Positions 2,006 through 27,767 of a stretch of DNA of 39,395 nucleotides are shown here, piece after piece. The notes beneath the pieces are model-generated. The model worked only from the letters and a program-made list of their open reading frames with translations. It did not search any database and had not been told where the DNA came from. Made by a program: the position numbers and the translations under genes. The first letter of the stretch is position 1. Every line of letters begins with the position of its first letter. Origin of the DNA: Dehalococcoidia bacterium (lineage in GTDB: Bacteria > Chloroflexota > Dehalococcoidia > Dehalococcoidales > RBG-16-60-22); contig DUFB01000077.1 of the NCBI GenBank assembly GCA_011192005.1, forward strand, positions 1-39,395, in the 5' to 3' direction.

Positions 2006-3598
2006 ATGAATCTACAGCGACCCAATGCCAATGATGCGACCCGCACCGCTAATCGTTCCCGAAACGTATCGCCGATGAGCGGCATCTGCACCCGTTGTAT
2101 CGATGGGTGCACCGGTAATTGCGAGGTCTTCAAGGCGACCTTCCGGGGCAGGGAACTGATTTACCCCGGGCCGTTCGGCGATATTACTGCGGGTGGCGAC
2201 AAGGACTATCCGGTCGATTACTCGCATCTGAATATCCAGGGCTATGCCCTCGGGGCCAGAGGCCTGCCCGAGGGAGTCGAGGGAAATCCTGATACGGCTA
2301 CGTTCCCCTCGGTCAACACCGAGACAGAATACGGGTGGGATATCAAGGTTAAGATGAAGACACCTATCTTTACCGGCGCCCTGGGTTCTACCGAGATAGC
2401 CCGCAAGAACTGGGAGCACTTCGCCATCGGGGCAGCCATCAGCGGCGTGACGCTGGTCTGCGGCGAAAACGTCTGCGGTATCGACCCCGCTCTGGAGCGT
2501 GACGCCAGGGGCCACGTGGTCAAGGCTCCCGATATGGACAGGCGTATCGAGACCTACCGCCGCTATCACCAGGGATACGGTGAAATACTCGTTCAGATGA
2601 ACGTCGAGGATACACGGCTGGGCGTCGCCGAATACGTCCACGAGAAGCACGGACTGGAAACCATAGAACTTAAGTGGGGACAGGGAGCCAAGTGTATCGG
2701 CGGCGAAATCAAGGTAAACAGCCTGGAGAGAGCTCTGGAATTGCAGAAACGGGGCTATATCGTCACGCCTGACCCGTCCAACGCGGTAAACCAGGCAGCT
2801 TTCAAGGACGGCGCCATCAAGGAGTTCGAAAGGCACAGTCGGCTGGGATTCATCGATGAACAGGGCTTTTATGATGAAGTGGATCGATTAAGAAACATCG
2901 GATTCAAACGCATCACACTGAAAACGGGCGCTTACGGACTCCGCGAGCTTGCCATGGCGATTAAATGGAGCTCAAAAGCCAAGATAGATTTGCTGACGAT
3001 AGACGGCGCGCCGGGCGGAACCGGGATGAGTCCCTGGCGTATGATGGAGGAATGGGGTATGCCCAGTCTATACCTGCACGCCGCCGCTTACGAGTTCTGC
3101 CAGAAGCTGGCGGACAAGGGAGAAAGGGTGCCGGATATCGCGTTCGCCGGGGCTTTCAGTAGCGAAGATGGCGTTTTTAAGGCGATAGCCCTGGGAGCAC
3201 CGTTCTCCAAAGCCGTCTGCATGGGACGGGCGCTGATGATACCGGGTATGGTCGGCAAAAACATCCAGCAGTGGCTGAAAGACGGCAAGCTACCTAATAC
3301 CGTAAGTCAGTTCGGCTCAACACCGGAAGAGATATTCGTGAATTACGAAGACGTTAAAGCAATCGTCGGTGCCAATGAAATGAAGAATATACCACTGGGA
3401 GCCGTCGGCATCTACAGCTACAGCGAAAAGATAAGAGTAGGGCTGCAGCAGCTGATGGCAGGAGCCAGGTGCTTCAGCCTGCCGGCCATTACGCGGCAGG
3501 AACTGATGTCTCTTACCGAGGAGTGTGCCAGGGTTACCGGCATACCGTACCTGATGGAATGTTACCGCGACGAGGCGATGCAGATCCTGAACAGCTAG
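2006..3598 (+). CDS. FMN-binding glutamate synthase family protein
   Basis: 530 aa with GltS FMN-domain features (LTIDGAPGGTGMSPWRMMEEWGMP) and an N-terminal Cys cluster (CTRCIDGCTGNC). Confidence 0.85.
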   Translation: MNLQRPNANDATRTANRSRNVSPMSGICTRCIDGCTGNCEVFKATFRGRELIYPGPFGDITAGGDKDYPVDYSHLNIQGYALGARGLPEGVEGNPDTATFPSVNTETEYGWDIKVKMKTPIFTGALGSTEIARKNWEHFAIGAAISGVTLVCGENVCGIDPALERDARGHVVKAPDMDRRIETYRRYHQGYGEILVQMNVEDTRLGVAEYVHEKHGLETIELKWGQGAKCIGGEIKVNSLERALELQKRGYIVTPDPSNAVNQAAFKDGAIKEFERHSRLGFIDEQGFYDEVDRLRNIGFKRITLKTGAYGLRELAMAIKWSSKAKIDLLTIDGAPGGTGMSPWRMMEEWGMPSLYLHAAAYEFCQKLADKGERVPDIAFAGAFSSEDGVFKAIALGAPFSKAVCMGRALMIPGMVGKNIQQWLKDGKLPNTVSQFGSTPEEIFVNYEDVKAIVGANEMKNIPLGAVGIYSYSEKIRVGLQQLMAGARCFSLPAITRQELMSLTEECARVTGIPYLMECYRDEAMQILNS

Positions 3599-3624
3599 TA
3601 GATTCTCCTACAATATAAACGACC

Positions 3625-3660
3625 AACGGGCTCTGAATATTCAGAGCCCGTTCTATTTGG
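3625..3660 (+). terminator. Rho-independent terminator after the glutamate synthase gene
   Basis: Perfect 28-bp palindrome AACGGGCTCTGAATATTCAGAGCCCGTT (3625-3652) followed by CTATTT. Confidence 0.75.
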
Positions 3661-3721
3661 CAGTAATTGACCAAGGTTAAAACACAATATACAGCGCCTG
3701 AATTGGGTTTGCGGAAACAAC

Positions 3722-3754
3722 AAAACGGGTATTTATCGTTAAAACACCCGTTTT
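3722..3754 (-). terminator. Terminator for the minus-strand gene 3786-4121
   Basis: AAAACGGGT (3722-3730) pairs with ACCCGTTTT (3746-3754); T-rich run follows on the minus strand. Confidence 0.6.
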
Positions 3755-3785
3755 ACCTAATGAATGAAATGACTGAAGAAGAGGA

Positions 3786-4121
3786 CTAGATTTGCTGGCC
3801 GTCTTCAGGAATGAGGTTTACCTTGCCATCCTCGACGCTAACATCAATGGGAATACCGTCCACGCCCTCACGCACCAGCATCCAGCCGTGGCCCTGGCTG
3901 GCGTACTCCTTAGCATTTTCGTAATTATCAGCGAAGACGAGCATGCTCTTGGCGACAACGATATAGAATGGGCGGAACTTTGTCGAAGAACAGTAGTCAC
4001 TTCCTTCGCAATTAGCGCAGTCTTTCTGGTAGTTAAAGTAGTCACGCTCGCACTGGCATTGCTGGATTTTCCACTTGTTCTTGACTGTTCCTTGCTTGTA
4101 TTTACTCTTCAAAGTTAACAT
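3786..4121 (-). CDS. Hypothetical Cys-rich small protein
   Basis: 111 aa with CQCERDYFNYQKDCANCEGSDYC cluster; own terminator downstream. The overlapping + ORF 3792-4118 is less protein-like. Confidence 0.55.
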   Translation of the reverse strand: MLTLKSKYKQGTVKNKWKIQQCQCERDYFNYQKDCANCEGSDYCSSTKFRPFYIVVAKSMLVFADNYENAKEYASQGHGWMLVREGVDGIPIDVSVEDGKVNLIPEDGQQI

Positions 4122-4257
4122 ACGTTAAGATATTAGCACATGATGCAAGACCTGAAAATATTACTTTAGTCCTGAACCAATTTCCTAGTACGGTGGTACT
4201 TATGGGCTATAATTCGTGCCTGACAGTCGGGTGATAACAGCCAAAAACCCCGATCAC

Positions 4258-4286
4258 TTGACATTTTTCATGATTTCACCTAGATT
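4258..4286 (+). promoter_or_regulatory. Sigma70-type promoter driving a structured leader/ncRNA
   Basis: TTGACA (4258-4263), 17 nt, TAGATT (4281-4286). Confidence 0.55.
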
Positions 4287-4291
4287 ATCCC

Positions 4292-4478
4292 TGCATGAAC
4301 ATGAGCGGTTACTAAGCAGGGTTCATGCATTGATAGAACTCGCAAATAATATAAGAGAATCAATAATTACCCGGCACCAGTAAAAAGGGGGCAACGACTC
4401 GCCACCTGTATCTGGGCACTTGGGTGGCGATGAGCCAACAGTGAAACCGACCTGAAAAAGGGTCGGTTATTGTTTTTT
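4292..4478 (+). ncRNA. Candidate structured ncRNA or 5' leader, about 185 nt
   Basis: Stem TGCATGAAC/GTTCATGCA (4292-4300/4321-4329), stem GCCACC/GGTGGC (4401-4406/4423-4428), and terminator-type hairpin AACCGACC/GGTCGGTT (4445-4452/4461-4468) followed by ATTGTTTTTT. No ORF explains it. Confidence 0.5.
4445..4478 (+). terminator. Intrinsic terminator or attenuator ending the candidate ncRNA
   Basis: AACCGACC-TGAAAAAG-GGTCGGTT then ATTGTTTTTT. Confidence 0.7.
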
Positions 4479-4554
4479 GGGGGAGGTGATAGGGTGAAAA
4501 AATTTATTAAGCAGTAGTGAACAAGGTAATCAATCTAAAAAGGGAGAAACCAAA

Positions 4555-4977
4555 ATGTCAGTGGAAAAGAATAAAGCAGTAATACGCCGCATTTACGAAG
4601 AGATATTTAAAAAAGGGAACATGGCATTAATAGATGAAGTTATAACTCCTAACTACATCTCACATGCACCTGGCGGTCAAGAGTACAAAGGTCGAGAAGG
4701 CTTCAAGCAATTCATCACCCAAACACGTAATGCCATGCCCGATCTTGATATAAAAATTGAGCATATAATTGCCGAAGGTGATAAAGTTGCCCATTGCGGT
4801 AAAATGACCGGTACATTTACGGGCGAAGTAATGGGTATAGCTCCGACAGGTAAAAAAGTTACGATAATTGTAACTACCATTAGCCGTTTTGAAAACGGCA
4901 AAGAAGCGGAAGCATGGATGGTTTATGACCAGCTTTCCATGTACCAACAGATGGGTGCCCCGCTTCCCAGCCAATAA
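4555..4977 (+). CDS. SnoaL-like polyketide cyclase / ester cyclase family protein (copy 1)
   Basis: 140 aa NTF2-like fold sequence (NKAVIRRIYEEIFKKGNMALIDEVITPNYISHAPG...GKKVTIIVTTISRFENGKEAEAW); SD AGGGAGAAA upstream. Confidence 0.8.
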   Translation: MSVEKNKAVIRRIYEEIFKKGNMALIDEVITPNYISHAPGGQEYKGREGFKQFITQTRNAMPDLDIKIEHIIAEGDKVAHCGKMTGTFTGEVMGIAPTGKKVTIIVTTISRFENGKEAEAWMVYDQLSMYQQMGAPLPSQ

Positions 4978-5004
4978 ATGAGGAAAAAGGGAGGAGTAAA
5001 TAAA

Positions 5005-21952: not shown

Positions 21953-22168
21953 TATCGTCTTATAAAGTAAATAAACCTGCCGTTTTTATACTATCAATGA
22001 ACTTGAAGAAATGTCAAGCAAAAAAGCCCTTTCCTACCCTGCCCGTAAAGCTCCCTTGACTCTATTCACAAGGTTCTGATAGACTCACGGAGAACACCCA
22101 GATCCAGGTGTCTGTTTACTTTTTGATGAATTCTCCGGAGGTAGACGTATCCCGAGAATATTATAGTG

Positions 22169-22651
22169 ATGGACATAGTTGAGATCCTGATAATCATAGG
22201 CACCGCAGCTTCGCCGATAATAGAGCTTAGAGGCGCTATCCCCATCGCCATAGGGAGATACCATTTCACCTGGTTCTACGCCTACCTGTTCAGCGTAATC
22301 GGTAATATTATCCCCGTTCCTTTTCTCCTCGGCTTTCTCGAAGGCATTATCGCATTGTTGAGCAAGGTACACTTTCTGGACAGGATAATCCAGTGGTTTC
22401 TCACCAAGACCAGGCAGAGAGGAAAAATAGTTGAGAGATACGAGCGTTTCGGCCTGGCGTTATTCGTGGCCATACCATTACCCATTACCGGTGCCTGGAC
22501 AGGTTCTATACTGGCATTTCTGATGGGACTGAAATTCAAACATGCCCTGGTATCAATAATCGCGGGAGTGCTCATAGCCGGAGCAATCGTGGTCAGCGCT
22601 ACCGTCCTGGGATGGGCAGTCGCCGATATATTTACCAAGCCCGTAGACTAG
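22169..22651 (+). CDS. Small multi-drug export / COG2426-like membrane protein
   Basis: SPIIELRGAIPIAIG, PLPITGAWTGSILAFLMGL; start may be 22166 or 22169. Confidence 0.8.
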   Translation: MDIVEILIIIGTAASPIIELRGAIPIAIGRYHFTWFYAYLFSVIGNIIPVPFLLGFLEGIIALLSKVHFLDRIIQWFLTKTRQRGKIVERYERFGLALFVAIPLPITGAWTGSILAFLMGLKFKHALVSIIAGVLIAGAIVVSATVLGWAVADIFTKPVD

Positions 22652-22731: not shown

Positions 22732-22808
22732 GTCCCTGTAGCTCAGTTGGACAGAGCGGCTGCCTTCTAAGCAGCGGGTCGTGGGTTCGAATCCCTCCAG
22801 GGACGCCA
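22732..22808 (+). tRNA. tRNA-Arg (anticodon TCT), CCA encoded
   Basis: GTCCCTG/CAGGGAC acceptor, anticodon loop CTTCTAA, GGTTCGAATCC T-loop. Confidence 0.95.
22764..22808 (+). repeat. attL-like direct repeat (within intact tRNA-Arg)
   Basis: CTTCTAAGCAGCGGGTCGTGGGTTCGAATCCCTCCAGGGACGCCA. Confidence 0.85.
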
Positions 22809-22862
22809 GAATAGCTTCGATTTTTACCCATTTTTAAGGTTCCTCCTTTCACTCTATCCTTT

Positions 22863-22915
22863 TGCTTAACAATTTGCTTAACTTTTAGCAATAATTCTGT
22901 ACTAATCTGCTTAAC
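22863..22915 (+). repeat. Three TGCTTAAC direct repeats adjacent to attL (candidate recombinase arm sites)
   Basis: TGCTTAAC at 22863-22870, 22875-22882, 22908-22915. Confidence 0.5.
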
Positions 22916-22982
22916 TTTACCTTCAGTTCATACAATAACTCTATATCTCACAAAGTAACGAAAAATATATAGAAAATGGTTC

Positions 22983-25900
22983 TCAAGTATTGATTACCCT
23001 GGATGTTTGAGGGTACTTATCCAGACAGAATTTATGACAGAGATCCCTAATTCCTGATAACGCATCCTTCTCTTTTTCTTTAGCAAACGTATTAAGATAT
23101 TTTTGATAAATGAGTAGTGCTAACGATCTATTTTTTCTTTCTAAGTGCAGACGCATAATCCGGCAATATACATCCTCTTGGTATGGGTCAATGGAAAGTA
23201 ATTTCTCAAGTAGTGTTAATGCTTTATCAATATTCCCCTTTTCGGCTTGAAAATCAGCTAATAACGAAAGAATCCCCAAATAAGCATGTTCGAGTTCACG
23301 TCGGCGGTCTTCTACCCATTCGGTGTAGAACTCTGTGAGAAACGCCCCAGAGTAAACTTCTTCAGCACGTTCAAGAGCAATGCTCTGCTGTTCATCCTTT
23401 GGATATTTACCTGCTATAGCAATAAGGCGTTCGAACTCCGCTACATCAAACCAAACACGTAAATCGGGATTAATCTTATATTTACTATCTTCCAACGAGA
23501 AGACTGCTGGAAAGAGCGCTCTACGTGCTCGAAACATATTGATATGAAAGTTGCTGCTCCCTTTCGCCGGTGATGAATCTGGCCATAATGCTGTGGTAAT
23601 TTGCTCCCTTGTTCTTCCACTAGGGTATATTAGCAGGTAGAAGAACATCTCTTTAGCGCGACTTGATCTCCAGTCAATGTCCTTTATTTGATGATTATTC
23701 AATATAATTTTAGAACATCCCAGTGCATGGGCCACGATATCGTGTTTAGTCTTTAAATTAGAGCTCTTCGACTTATCAGCAATATCTCTAGCCTGCTCCA
23801 TTTCATTTAGAGATCTTATCTTTTCCAAAACCCTGACAAACCGGCCTTCTCCAATTCCGAGTGAAACACCATAATGCACTAACGGTAGAGTTTTTTTGCC
23901 CTCTATCACCATGAAGTTTTCATATCCTAATTTATCGGCCAGCTTAGACGCTTTGTTGAGCCATTCCGCCGCTGCGTTGTATTCACGGGATAGAAATGAT
24001 ACCTGTGCGAGGTGGAAATACACCTTTGCCAGGGCATCTCTGTCACCCATAATCCGTAAATGCTTACCGGCATTACTCAGTTTCATCTTAGCCCGTTCAA
24101 ATAGACCAGTTTCATAATCAATGATACCGAGTTGGACATCAAAGAGTGCTTTTTCATATGGTTGTTTCTGATCCTCTGTCTGATAGCGAGCTTCTTCAAG
24201 TAACGTCTTGGCTCTATCGTATTGCTCAAGAAGTCGGTATGTCTCCCCGATACCAGCAGTAGCATAAGCGATAAACGTTGCTTCCATTGACTGCCTGGCA
24301 AGTTCAATACCTTCATAGTAATTTTTCAATGCTTCATCAAAACGACTTAAGTCTCGAAGCGTATCCGCTATCGATATTTTTATTACTGCTTCTATACGCA
24401 AGTGCCCTGTTTCCTTTGCTTTTTCGAGTCCGGAGTGAAAAACATCAAGTGCCAGATTATATTGTCCAAAACGTTGGTATATTATCCCAATGTTATTTAG
24501 AGTAGCAGCGAGTTCGCCGAGGTTATTGATTTTCATCCATCCAACTCTCGCCTTTTCTAAATACATCTTTGCCTTGGTAAGCTGGCCTAATCTCTTATAA
24601 GTGACCCCTAGAGAATTGTGTACTAGAGCTAGAGCTCCAATATCAAAAATAGAAGAATAATATCTCTGAGCTAGTCGAAGTTGCTTAATGGATGAAGGAA
24701 ATTGCCCCTGATCTTTGTAGATGTCTCCCAACCTCCGATGGCACGCGCCGAGTAGTTCCGCTGGTCCATGGTGGTCTTCCAATAACCGTATAGCAGCTAA
24801 TATATTAATTTTAGCTTCTTTGAAATACCCACCCAAACGAAACATCGCGCCCCGCCAGCTTAATGTTTCTGCTTTTAGAAGCCAGTCTTCATCACCTGAA
24901 AGCTTATTGAATAAACTGGCTAACAGCTCGTGTGCTTTTTTAATATCCCCCAGGTGACTAAGGCACTGTACATCCAGTAAAACTAATTCTGGGTCAGAAG
25001 CTCTCAGATTTGTTGGTAACATTTTGAACCATCTTTGCATAATAGACCATTTCCCGGCTTTCAGTAAGTCTGGACCTGCGTCTTTAATTATCCGTGCGAC
25101 TTCGTGGTACTTCCCGGCGTTATGATAATGGGTCACAGCTTTTATCAACTGGTGATCTTGTTCGTATAACAAAGCAGCCTTAAAATGTAGAATCCCAAAT
25201 TGAGTAGGATCATCCTGCCTCAACTTCTCTTGTAGAAAGTCCCTGAAAAGTTGATGATATCGATAGTGTCTAGCCTTTATGTCTACGCACTGAAGGAAAA
25301 GATTCTGCTGTGCGAGATAACTCATCACCTTAAGGTAGTTCACATTTGGAATTAGTTGTTCAATAAATTCGGATTCCATGTCATAAATCGTACTAGAAGC
25401 TAGTAAGAATTGCTGAATGTCTAGAGATTGTTTCTCAAATACTTCTGTTGTCATATAACGGAAAACCTGATCTTTAGTAATCTCTGGTCTTTTGGAGAAG
25501 TTGCTTGTACTTAAGTTATTGAGATGAAGCATCAGGCTTATTGCCCAGCCTTCCGTTTTCTTGACTAAATTGTCAGCTTCCTGACTTGTTAGATTCTGGC
25601 CAAAGCATGCGGCAGCTAGACACTTCGTTTCATCCGCTGTGAATGATAAGTGCGACATCTCAAGGATAGAAACCTGATTTCTCAATGTCAGTTTCGAAAT
25701 GACTGGTATTTCTACTTGCGTACGGCTTGTAATGATGAAATTGCAATTCTCAGGAATTTGTTCCAACAAAAGATTCAATATAACCTTCGCTGGTTCAGAA
25801 TGTTCGATAAGGTGATAGTCTTCGAGTATGAGGACAAGGTAGTCCGGCAGTGAATTATTAATTTCTTTTATCATGATTTCAAGCAAATGACGAGGATTAT

Positions 25901-26231
25901 TCCTAATATCACTTGCCGTAGTCAGTTGTGATATTGGAAATTGACCGAAGCCGGGGAAGCGTGAAGATATGGAGGAAAGAATGCCTTCCAGAAGTAGTTT
26001 GGGGTCTTCGTCCTCGACATTGAATGAATACCAACAGACGGGGACATCAATGCTGTGAACAAAATCAGCAAGAAGTGTGGTCTTACCATAACCCGCAGGT
26101 GCTGTAATCACCTGTAGTCGCCGCTGGATGTTATTATGCAAGATGTCAATTAGACGCTCGCGATGAACATGACTACTCCCTAATTGTGGGATGAGCAGTT
26201 TCGTATTTAATACCCTATTAGTGATACTCAT
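22983..26231 (-). CDS. Large MalT/SARP-like ATP-binding transcriptional regulator with TPR region, winged helix and BTAD domain
   Basis: 1082 aa; P-loop VITAPAGYGKTTLLADF, long TPR array, C-terminal wHTH (RSSRAKEMFFYLLIYPSGRTREQITTALWP) and BTAD-like region. Confidence 0.88.
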   Translation of the reverse strand: MSITNRVLNTKLLIPQLGSSHVHRERLIDILHNNIQRRLQVITAPAGYGKTTLLADFVHSIDVPVCWYSFNVEDEDPKLLLEGILSSISSRFPGFGQFPISQLTTASDIRNNPRHLLEIMIKEINNSLPDYLVLILEDYHLIEHSEPAKVILNLLLEQIPENCNFIITSRTQVEIPVISKLTLRNQVSILEMSHLSFTADETKCLAAACFGQNLTSQEADNLVKKTEGWAISLMLHLNNLSTSNFSKRPEITKDQVFRYMTTEVFEKQSLDIQQFLLASSTIYDMESEFIEQLIPNVNYLKVMSYLAQQNLFLQCVDIKARHYRYHQLFRDFLQEKLRQDDPTQFGILHFKAALLYEQDHQLIKAVTHYHNAGKYHEVARIIKDAGPDLLKAGKWSIMQRWFKMLPTNLRASDPELVLLDVQCLSHLGDIKKAHELLASLFNKLSGDEDWLLKAETLSWRGAMFRLGGYFKEAKINILAAIRLLEDHHGPAELLGACHRRLGDIYKDQGQFPSSIKQLRLAQRYYSSIFDIGALALVHNSLGVTYKRLGQLTKAKMYLEKARVGWMKINNLGELAATLNNIGIIYQRFGQYNLALDVFHSGLEKAKETGHLRIEAVIKISIADTLRDLSRFDEALKNYYEGIELARQSMEATFIAYATAGIGETYRLLEQYDRAKTLLEEARYQTEDQKQPYEKALFDVQLGIIDYETGLFERAKMKLSNAGKHLRIMGDRDALAKVYFHLAQVSFLSREYNAAAEWLNKASKLADKLGYENFMVIEGKKTLPLVHYGVSLGIGEGRFVRVLEKIRSLNEMEQARDIADKSKSSNLKTKHDIVAHALGCSKIILNNHQIKDIDWRSSRAKEMFFYLLIYPSGRTREQITTALWPDSSPAKGSSNFHINMFRARRALFPAVFSLEDSKYKINPDLRVWFDVAEFERLIAIAGKYPKDEQQSIALERAEEVYSGAFLTEFYTEWVEDRRRELEHAYLGILSLLADFQAEKGNIDKALTLLEKLLSIDPYQEDVYCRIMRLHLERKNRSLALLIYQKYLNTFAKEKEKDALSGIRDLCHKFCLDKYPQTSRVINT

Positions 26232-26477
26232 TTTATTTGATTGTCACTCAGACCGTCATTTGTTTAACAACTTTTTTGCATGTTCAGGTTAAGGAAACTT
26301 AGTTTTCTTGCTAAATAATTATAGACCGCTTATCAAATGAGGGCAAGAGCAACCACAGGGCCTTGTTAAAAAATACCCACCAATTTTATATACAACGATT
26401 CTTGGTAAGAGTTTGGTAAGATCCACTTCCTTATTATTAACAAACAAACCTGAGAATTTAAAAAGGGGGGTGATATT

Positions 26478-26612
26478 ATGAAATCATTCTCGGCGCGCAT
26501 ACAGCTATATATACCTTGGCTCAAATTTGCTTTTTTGTTGGCTGTCATTATTGTTACATTAATTATTTGTGCAGCACCTGCAAGCGCATCACCTGATGTT
26601 ACAGGCATCTAG
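26478..26612 (+). CDS. Short exported peptide precursor (44 aa) or truncated exported protein
   Basis: ATG at 26478 with GGGGGGTG SD; translates MKSFSARIQLYIPWLKFAFLLAVIIVTLIICAAPASASPDVTGI*. Signal-peptide-like with an AxA site. Below the size cut of the track. Confidence 0.5.
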   Translation: MKSFSARIQLYIPWLKFAFLLAVIIVTLIICAAPASASPDVTGI

Positions 26613-26819
26613 GTTTCAAGAATCTGGATTTGATGCCCCAGACAGTTTTTTAGACATTCTTCCTGTTCGGGTTTTAAATCCTTCCATGAAAAGTAAATAA
26701 ATGCGTCCCGGTGTTGCTACTAAACAGAATTCTAATAACTGTCATTGATATAGACGCGCAATAGATTCCAAAATTCCTCCAAAGAAAGACAGTTTATCAT
26801 TTCATATAATCGGAGTTAA

Positions 26820-27050
26820 ATGAACGAGATTAAATCTGTGTTGAAGCAACACAAACAACAACTAATGAAGTTGCCTAATGTTATTGGTGTTGGTATTGGA
26901 AAGAAGGGATCCAAACAGGTAATAATAGTCTTCGTCAAGCAAAAAATGCCTGAATCATCACTCCAACCTAAGGATGTCGTACCGAAGAGATTGGGTCGAT
27001 ACGAAACAGACGTCAGATCTCAAGTCTGGGTTGGCCGAATTCACGTGTAA
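26820..27050 (+). CDS. Stand-alone 76-aa domain like the N-terminus of bacterial trypsin-like/Nal1-type proteins
   Basis: LPNVIGVGIGKKGSKQVIIVFVKQKMPESSLQPKDVVPKRLGRYETDV. Confidence 0.55.
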   Translation: MNEIKSVLKQHKQQLMKLPNVIGVGIGKKGSKQVIIVFVKQKMPESSLQPKDVVPKRLGRYETDVRSQVWVGRIHV

Positions 27051-27092
27051 CAAACTTGATATTCTAATGCTAAATCTAAGGAGGAAAAACAG

Positions 27093-27137
27093 CTTCTAAG
27101 CAGCGGGTCGTGGGTTCGAATCCCTCCAGGGACGCCA
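27093..27137 (+). repeat. attR-like partial tRNA-Arg copy (3' 45 bp)
   Basis: Identical to 22764-22808; lacks the acceptor 5' strand and D arm, so not a functional tRNA. Confidence 0.85.
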
Positions 27138-27392
27138 TAATAGACTCAGGCTGAGACTAAATTTATTGATAATCCTGGAAATTTAAACTGATAACTACTA
27201 AAGGCTCTCAGCATTGTTATGTTATCGTATTTACCTACTTACCCAGGGCAAATTCCTGCTTTTTCTTGACGGAACGGCCGCCGTGTCCGTGCTTGACATT
27301 TTTAAAGGATTCTTTGTAACTATTTCTCTGGAGCGATTTCTCTTTCTTTCTTCCCATTATATTCTCCATGAAAGATCTCTCTTGATATTTAC

Positions 27393-27767
27393 TTATAAAG
27401 GTTTAGACCCGTTTCCCTCGCCCAGTATCTTCCTCCATTGACGCCATTCGATTTTCGCCAGACTTATTATTGAATCATGTACTGAGTCATTGTCAGTGAG
27501 TTTATACAGGTGGTTGCCATTCTCGATACATACCCCTACCATCCTGTTCATAACCAGCCGTCCCAATGCACCACGTATCCGGGATTTCTCACTATCATCA
27601 TTCTGAGCATGAATTATCGCCAACTCGCTGAACTTCGCCAGAGGGTACGTACCAAAAAACCGGAGAAGCTCAAGACAATAGTGGTCATCCAGATATTTAT
27701 TGATTATCTGAGCAGGTGTCTTTCCTTTCTTAGAAGTCTCCCTGGGTGCGGATAAAACAATAGTCAT
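27393..27767 (-). CDS. Hypothetical winged-helix-like protein
   Basis: 124 aa (AKFSELAIIHAQNDDSEKSRIRGALGRLVMNRMVGVCIENGNHLYKLT), SD GAAAGGAGA; downstream of ftsZ. Confidence 0.6.
   Translation of the reverse strand: MTIVLSAPRETSKKGKTPAQIINKYLDDHYCLELLRFFGTYPLAKFSELAIIHAQNDDSEKSRIRGALGRLVMNRMVGVCIENGNHLYKLTDNDSVHDSIISLAKIEWRQWRKILGEGNGSKPL

Follow-up and report, generated by a model that had tools for sequence, protein, structure and literature searches.

A small tRNA-Arg island in a Dehalococcoidia genome with a candidate peptide autoinduction module

The window analysed here, 39,395 nucleotides of a Dehalococcoidia bacterium (contig DUFB01000077.1 of assembly GCA_011192005.1; Dehalococcoidales, RBG-16-60-22), carries an element of 4329 bp integrated at the 3' end of a tRNA-Arg(TCT) gene. 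The element contains a large regulator gene and, beside it, a putative SARP-type operator followed by a short open reading frame (ORF) for a putative exported peptide. On balance, this island probably carries a pheromone-like autoinduction module, which would resemble RRNPP systems in its working and SARP regulators in its output and which would have been acquired horizontally.

Integration at tRNA-Arg

The following features define the island.

22732-22808, forward strand: intact tRNA-Arg(TCT) gene (ARAGORN); its last 45 bp (22764-22808) are the tRNA-side attachment site and belong to the direct repeat D1
22764-27092, no strand: integrated element of 4329 bp, i.e. one att copy plus the interior, recognized by the direct repeat, empty sites in relatives and low GC content
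27093-27137, forward strand: distal 45-bp fragment of the tRNA 3' end, the original host copy (attR) and second copy of D1; the downstream sequence resembles the post-tRNA sequence of the relatives G015, G016 and G002

Repeat D1 aligns positions 22764-22814 with 27093-27143 at 50 of 51 bases, in which 45 exact bases are followed by a single mismatch (G/T at 22809/27138) and then by AATAG. By chance, a 45-mer would recur exactly within 39 kb with a probability of approximately 1e-18. The intact tRNA is situated at one end of the element, and the distal copy at the other end is missing the 5' half. The exact repeat, the mismatch with its five matching bases and the missing 5' half had all been described in the first-pass annotation of this DNA, and each was recovered in the D1 alignment, the repeat analysis and the ARAGORN calls. 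These two copies are the only ones in the host genome (32-base core, 3 mismatches allowed; 2.1-Mb, 80%-complete assembly). Among 31 genomes of the family, 18 contain the tRNA motif, and two copies at one site were found in the genome of the window alone (G000 in the genome comparisons); the second tRNA motif of G016 is located on a different contig. This G016 sequence (locus L100, G016:C70:12366-12395) is a tRNA-Arg-like 3' fragment without the 5' half, which does not lie on the contig of the intact tRNA and may mark another integration.

Empty sites could be found in relatives, a comparison that rests on different genera and includes no genome of the same species. In G027 and G029, the gene order is dxs, Sm_multidrug_ex, tRNA-Arg, a 44-aa gene, a 124-aa gene, ftsZ and ftsA, contiguous and without insert. 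The left neighbour in the window is a gene of the Sm_multidrug_ex family (22166-22651), and to the right follow the host 44-aa gene, the 124-aa gene, ftsZ and ftsA. Because the same left and right neighbours flank tRNA-Arg, the gene order of the window with the insert removed is that of G027 and G029. The distance from tRNA-Arg(TCT) to the host 44-aa gene amounts to approximately 260 bp in these two genomes and to 98 bp in the window, counted from the distal copy. Furthermore, the sequence that follows the distal copy (TAATAGACTCAGGCTGAGACT) resembles the post-tRNA sequence of G015 (TTTCAGACTCAAGCTGAGGCT; p = 0.0005), and matches were also obtained for G016 (p = 0.0085) and G002 (p = 0.012), whereas the bases after the intact tRNA of the window have no such match to these three genomes. 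It follows that the host's original 3' end survives as the distal copy and that the tRNA now uses a 3' half brought in by the incoming element. The exact identity of a copy outside any tRNA suggests that the insertion is recent relative to the divergence of the genera. The search for an empty site had been proposed as a check in the first-pass annotation, and its outcome, both in gene order and in junction sequence, supports the view taken there that the repeat is the footprint of a site-specific integration at the 3' end of a tRNA, in the style of a tyrosine recombinase.

It could be argued instead that ordinary chromosomal DNA lies between the repeats and that the fragment at 27093 is left from an old tandem tRNA array, because the family varies at the site after tRNA-Arg(TCT): G013, G018, G005, G002, G016 and G024 hold other, unrelated and differing metabolic genes there, with no repeat beside them in the stretches read. 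We regard such an origin as highly improbable, as it is already contradicted by the empty sites of G027 and G029 and by the homology between the distal flank and the sequence behind the tRNA in three relatives. It also conflicts with the exact 45-bp identity of the non-tRNA copy, with the anomalous GC content and with the phylogeny across families.

Regarding base composition, the interval has a GC content of 0.397, compared to 0.449-0.540 in windows of equal size (4.3 kb) elsewhere in the contig, and the GC content at third codon positions is 0.38 in the regulator gene and 0.52-0.68 in other long genes. The full BTAD-type regulator was absent from the other 30 genomes of the family (E <= 1e-60), in which the exception is a 284-bit match in G001 restricted to the N-terminal NTPase-type part. 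In the regulator tree, the sister of the window regulator is that of G101, which belongs to a different family (100/100 support), and other members of the family of G101 are placed elsewhere. We propose from these sequence characters that the module was acquired horizontally in this host. No relative of the regulator was found in the viral collection, and plasmids returned distant matches only, of which the best-covering one is 22% identical. Four operator matches in viral contigs were taken as chance; of these, L198 was examined and contains phage replication genes but lacks a regulator. A defence-system function was also considered and rejected, as it had nothing but the TPR repeats and a marginal GajB match in its favour.

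The interior of the element contains main ORFs for proteins of 1082, 44 and 76 aa, in agreement with the large regulator and two short ORFs of the first-pass annotation, which had left the cargo unnamed. Its statement that integrase and replication genes are missing also holds, since no integrase, other recombinase, relaxase or replication gene was found among the interior ORFs examined, and PF00589, searched in all six frames of the genome, had three matches, none of them on the window contig: one fragment and two full-length tyrosine recombinases, whose open frames measure 308 and 314 aa. No tRNA stands in an island-like arrangement beside the regulator at the other regulator loci fetched; therefore, the tRNA setting is particular to the genome of the window. 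Two side observations can be added. Close to the regulator of another Dehalococcoidales metagenome-assembled genome (L114), a large serine-recombinase-like gene (3460-5004) occurs together with phage-like genes. The 124-aa gene of the host flank (27393-27767, reverse strand) belongs to an unknown family and adjoins ftsZ in relatives as well, at approximately 35% identity.

Regulator, operator and peptide gene

The module consists of the following parts.

22983-26231, reverse strand: regulator of 1082 aa with a MalT-like NTPase, a TPR superhelix and a C-terminal AfsR-like DNA-binding domain plus BTAD, assigned from Pfam/NCBIfam, profile matches to the Protein Data Bank (PDB), a structure model and a Rap receptor match
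26402-26421, forward strand: putative operator TTGGTAAGAGTTTGGTAAGA, two repeats 11 bp apart, matching the consensus of 12 loci at 19 of 19 positions
26432-26437, forward strand: -10-like box TATTAT, 10 nt after the operator, a spacing common to members of the order
26478-26612, forward strand: ORF of 44 aa for a putative exported peptide with a signal-peptide-like segment and the tail SPDVTGI, preceded by a strong Shine-Dalgarno sequence; the same gene type lies beside the regulator in 11 other genomes of the order and is under purifying selection in relatives

The N-terminal approximately 410 residues of the regulator match MalT (8bob, E 7e-59, PDB profile), and NF003420 covers residues 9-422 with a score under the cut-off of that model. 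At the C-terminus, SARP-type DNA-binding and BTAD domains were detected by PF03704 (E 2e-13) and by AfsR (8k60, profile positions 866-1071). The structure model, obtained with three sequences, is modest overall (predicted local distance difference test score of 67.7), and we used the TPR region alone, in which the superhelix is confident from approximately residue 360 to 790. This region matches the Rap pheromone receptor 8rsv with a template modelling score of 0.70 by target, among many other TPR proteins, and the Rap sequences 6t3h and 4gyo were matched by profile.

Because regulator loci were compared, a conserved neighbour of the regulator could be found. All 12 members of the order with a readable flank have the operator, a -10-like box, a Shine-Dalgarno sequence and an ORF of 34-48 aa beside the regulator, and this pairing holds even for regulators just 33-36% identical to that of the window. 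The operators match TTGGTAAGAGNTTGGTAAGA at 17-19 of 19 positions, and the -10-like box follows 10 nt past the operator (9 nt in G084; measured from a third repeat in G101). Exact operator matches occur at 16 sites in 156 genomes of the order, compared to none for the reversed-pattern control and 0.44 expected; at least one of the 16 (in G113) lies by reading inside coding sequence and is probably due to chance. The encoded peptides have a hydrophobic signal-like segment, AxA-like sites by inspection and a short tail, the cleavage points having been set by eye. These tails are GPVGSIP, GPDIFGP, GAPNCFNP, DGDGFEP, SGADGFGP, GAPAAFNP, GLDGIGP, WPVGTCP, WPVATGP, GPFPTMP and GPIATLP, to which the approximately seven-residue tail of the window is added; 11 of the 12 end in proline. 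In two pairs of the same genus, the ratio of nonsynonymous to synonymous substitutions is 0.11 and 0.13, and the peptide ORF is under purifying selection in these relatives. In G084 (L210, 8492-10663) and G083 (L211, 7604-9733), the regulators apparently lack the N-terminal NTPase (frames of 717-724 aa), with operator and peptide gene kept.

In a sample of the whole class, the regulator was detected in 72 of 393 genomes (E <= 1e-110). From these, we tested a non-random set of 30, namely the best-scoring ones with enough flank, against 54 control gene ends, some of which were relatives of the MalT-like type. Within 450 bp downstream, we found a peptide ORF at 23 of the 30 regulators and at 3 of the 54 controls. 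The combination of peptide ORF and 11-bp direct repeat occurred at 16 of 30 and at none of the controls; the Fisher p value of 2e-9 is only a guide because related loci are not independent. Relatives matched chiefly through the MalT-like part have no peptide ORF nearby. Both the direct repeat (GGCGAG, TTGTCAGG, TTCGTCACAG) and the tail (QSPLF, DDGLDP, EYTSYP) differ by clade. In G212 (L175, after position 4719), two near-identical 43-aa peptide genes stand in tandem downstream of a single regulator.

Some genomes give hints to further targets. A second copy of operator and promoter precedes a heptose-type sugar operon in G045 (L086, 1806, reverse strand) and glycosyltransferase/epimerase genes in G101 (L212, 6222, reverse strand), and small response-regulator genes with a receiver domain follow the peptide gene in G031, G101, G090 and G088 (noted loci L208, L209, L204 and L085). 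These receiver-domain and surface-polysaccharide genes, whose identities were read from translations with no profile test, are likely outputs of the module. In the genome of the window, the visible loop comprises the peptide and the regulator only.

Proposed signalling and its alternatives

In the mechanism that we favour, transcription of the peptide gene would start at a promoter with the 11-bp direct repeat as its -35 region, and the peptide would be exported and cut behind the signal segment to approximately seven residues. The tail would re-enter the cell via an oligopeptide ABC transporter, for which the 11 SBP_bac_5 (oligopeptide-type binding) proteins encoded in the genome are a possible uptake route, and, as in RRNPP receptors (PMC9765709), would bind to the regulator at its TPR superhelix. 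The C-terminal SARP-type domain would then bind the repeat and recruit RNA polymerase, as in AfsR (PMC10936776), which would result in positive feedback on the peptide promoter.

Several points weigh against this mechanism. MalT, which has the same N-terminal layout as the regulator, senses a sugar, and TPR folds accept a wide range of ligands. Under the criteria used, about a quarter of the tested regulators had no detectable peptide ORF. The peptide gene of the window is divergent from the regulator, while elsewhere the two share a strand with the peptide gene downstream, and the window tail has isoleucine instead of proline as its last residue. We found one good operator only in the genome of the window, which is 80% complete in the assembly, and no output gene beyond the peptide. 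Moreover, the sequence data establish the integration, the gene pairing, the conservation of the operator, the promoter spacing and the selection on the peptide ORF in relatives, and from there we infer that the peptide is exported, processed, taken up and sensed and that it feeds back on its own promoter. Circular permutation was rejected as the cause of the divergent gene, because it keeps the relative strand and an inversion would be needed.

The peptide could also be an effector and not a signal. The SARP-type regulator would then sense another cue and turn on a small exported or membrane peptide, in a relay like AfsR/AfsS or with a membrane-active or bacteriocin-like product. AfsR activates the small gene afsS, and its SARP domain binds two 11-bp direct repeats that overlap the afsS -35 (PMC10936776); the promoter layout of the module is similar. 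We nevertheless judge an effector role rather unlikely, as the conserved part is a tail of 5-8 residues after a signal-like segment, with a near-invariant terminal proline in the order, and such a tail is short for a bacteriocin and would suit a TPR ligand.

Finally, the module might be passenger DNA of a decayed phage or conjugative element that is non-functional in this host. The lack of an integrase, the single operator, the rearranged peptide gene and the tail without proline would fit such decay, as would the remaining ORF of the element:

26820-27050, forward strand: ORF of 76 aa that resembles the N-terminal part of a protease family (phrog_20754, E 8e-10), with weak relatives in G035, G041 and G014

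This ORF matches the start of the protease family only and gave no match among phage records. However, the frame of the regulator is intact across 1082 aa, the operator is complete at all 19 positions, and the -10 box and Shine-Dalgarno sequence are intact, so we consider mere passenger DNA unlikely. Returning to the signalling mechanism, we see about an even chance for its extension to the class, i.e. that the Dehalococcoidia have an unrecognized peptide-pheromone system with a STAND-TPR receptor, a SARP output and an adjacent peptide of 5-8 residues, in which repeat and peptide are clade-specific and which has moved between families on small tRNA islands.

Relation to known elements and signalling systems

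A cis-mobilizable element (CIME) is defined by attL and attR flanks without integration or transfer genes (PMC5704250). The element of the window keeps attL and attR at a tRNA 3' end and has neither integration nor transfer genes, and it has no integrase of its own as tRNA-integrated islands do. Hence, it is a tRNA-integrated, CIME-like island that lost its recombinase or never carried one, and the data fit a cis-mobilizable remnant and an element moved in trans alike. In contrast to such elements, it is very small, its cargo is one coherent regulatory module, and no parental integrative and conjugative or integrative and mobilizable element, accretion partner or partner integrase was identified. 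The ssrA islands of Dehalococcoides (vcr-GI), which the first-pass annotation had named as a precedent, are only loosely apt: they belong to the same class of bacteria and adjoin an RNA gene whose 3' end is repeated directly, but they target ssrA with a 20-bp repeat and many of them carry a serine-recombinase module (PMC3146451), whereas the window element sits at tRNA-Arg with a 45-bp repeat and has no recombinase among its interior ORFs.

Peptide quorum sensing with cytoplasmic TPR receptors has been described for Firmicutes, and since the standard detector was designed around receptors from this group with 250-500 aa (PMC10075063), the module would escape it. No report of a Chloroflexota peptide pheromone or of a BTAD-peptide pairing was found in the literature searched, with subscription journals outside coverage. 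If the signal is real, the Dehalococcoidia, a large and mostly uncultured group in which some members have complete single-contig genomes, would gain a predicted chemical language, whose heptapeptides could be tested. It would also link the SARP and RRNPP ideas and provide a ligand for a large SARP-type regulator, and the island shows that the module is able to travel in compact form.

With the RRNPP(A) systems (Rap, NprR, PlcR, AimR), the module shares the small propeptide gene adjoining a TPR receptor gene, the short linear tail and the occurrence on mobile elements (PMC10075063, PMC9765709). It differs in its receptor of approximately 1080 aa with an NTPase at the N-terminus and a C-terminal SARP-type DNA-binding domain, compared to 250-500 aa and an N-terminal helix-turn-helix (HTH) or Rap-type domain, and in its host phylum, Chloroflexota instead of Firmicutes. 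The output domain also separates it from MalT, which shares the N-terminal approximately 410 residues and has a LuxR-type HTH. With AfsR-AfsS and other large SARP and LAL regulators of Streptomyces, it has in common the NTPase, TPR, SARP DNA-binding and BTAD parts and a small gene whose promoter contains an 11-bp direct-repeat operator. In SARP operators, direct repeats with a spacing of 11 or 22 bp lie shortly before the -10 (PMC10936776), and the putative operator has this layout, with repeats 11 bp apart. In contrast to AfsR, the SARP part is C-terminal and not N-terminal, and the target is a tiny signal-peptide-bearing ORF instead of AfsS. Hence, the module stands outside the RRNPP systems in receptor size and architecture and outside the AfsR layout with its SARP part at the other end, and by analogy it may work like both.

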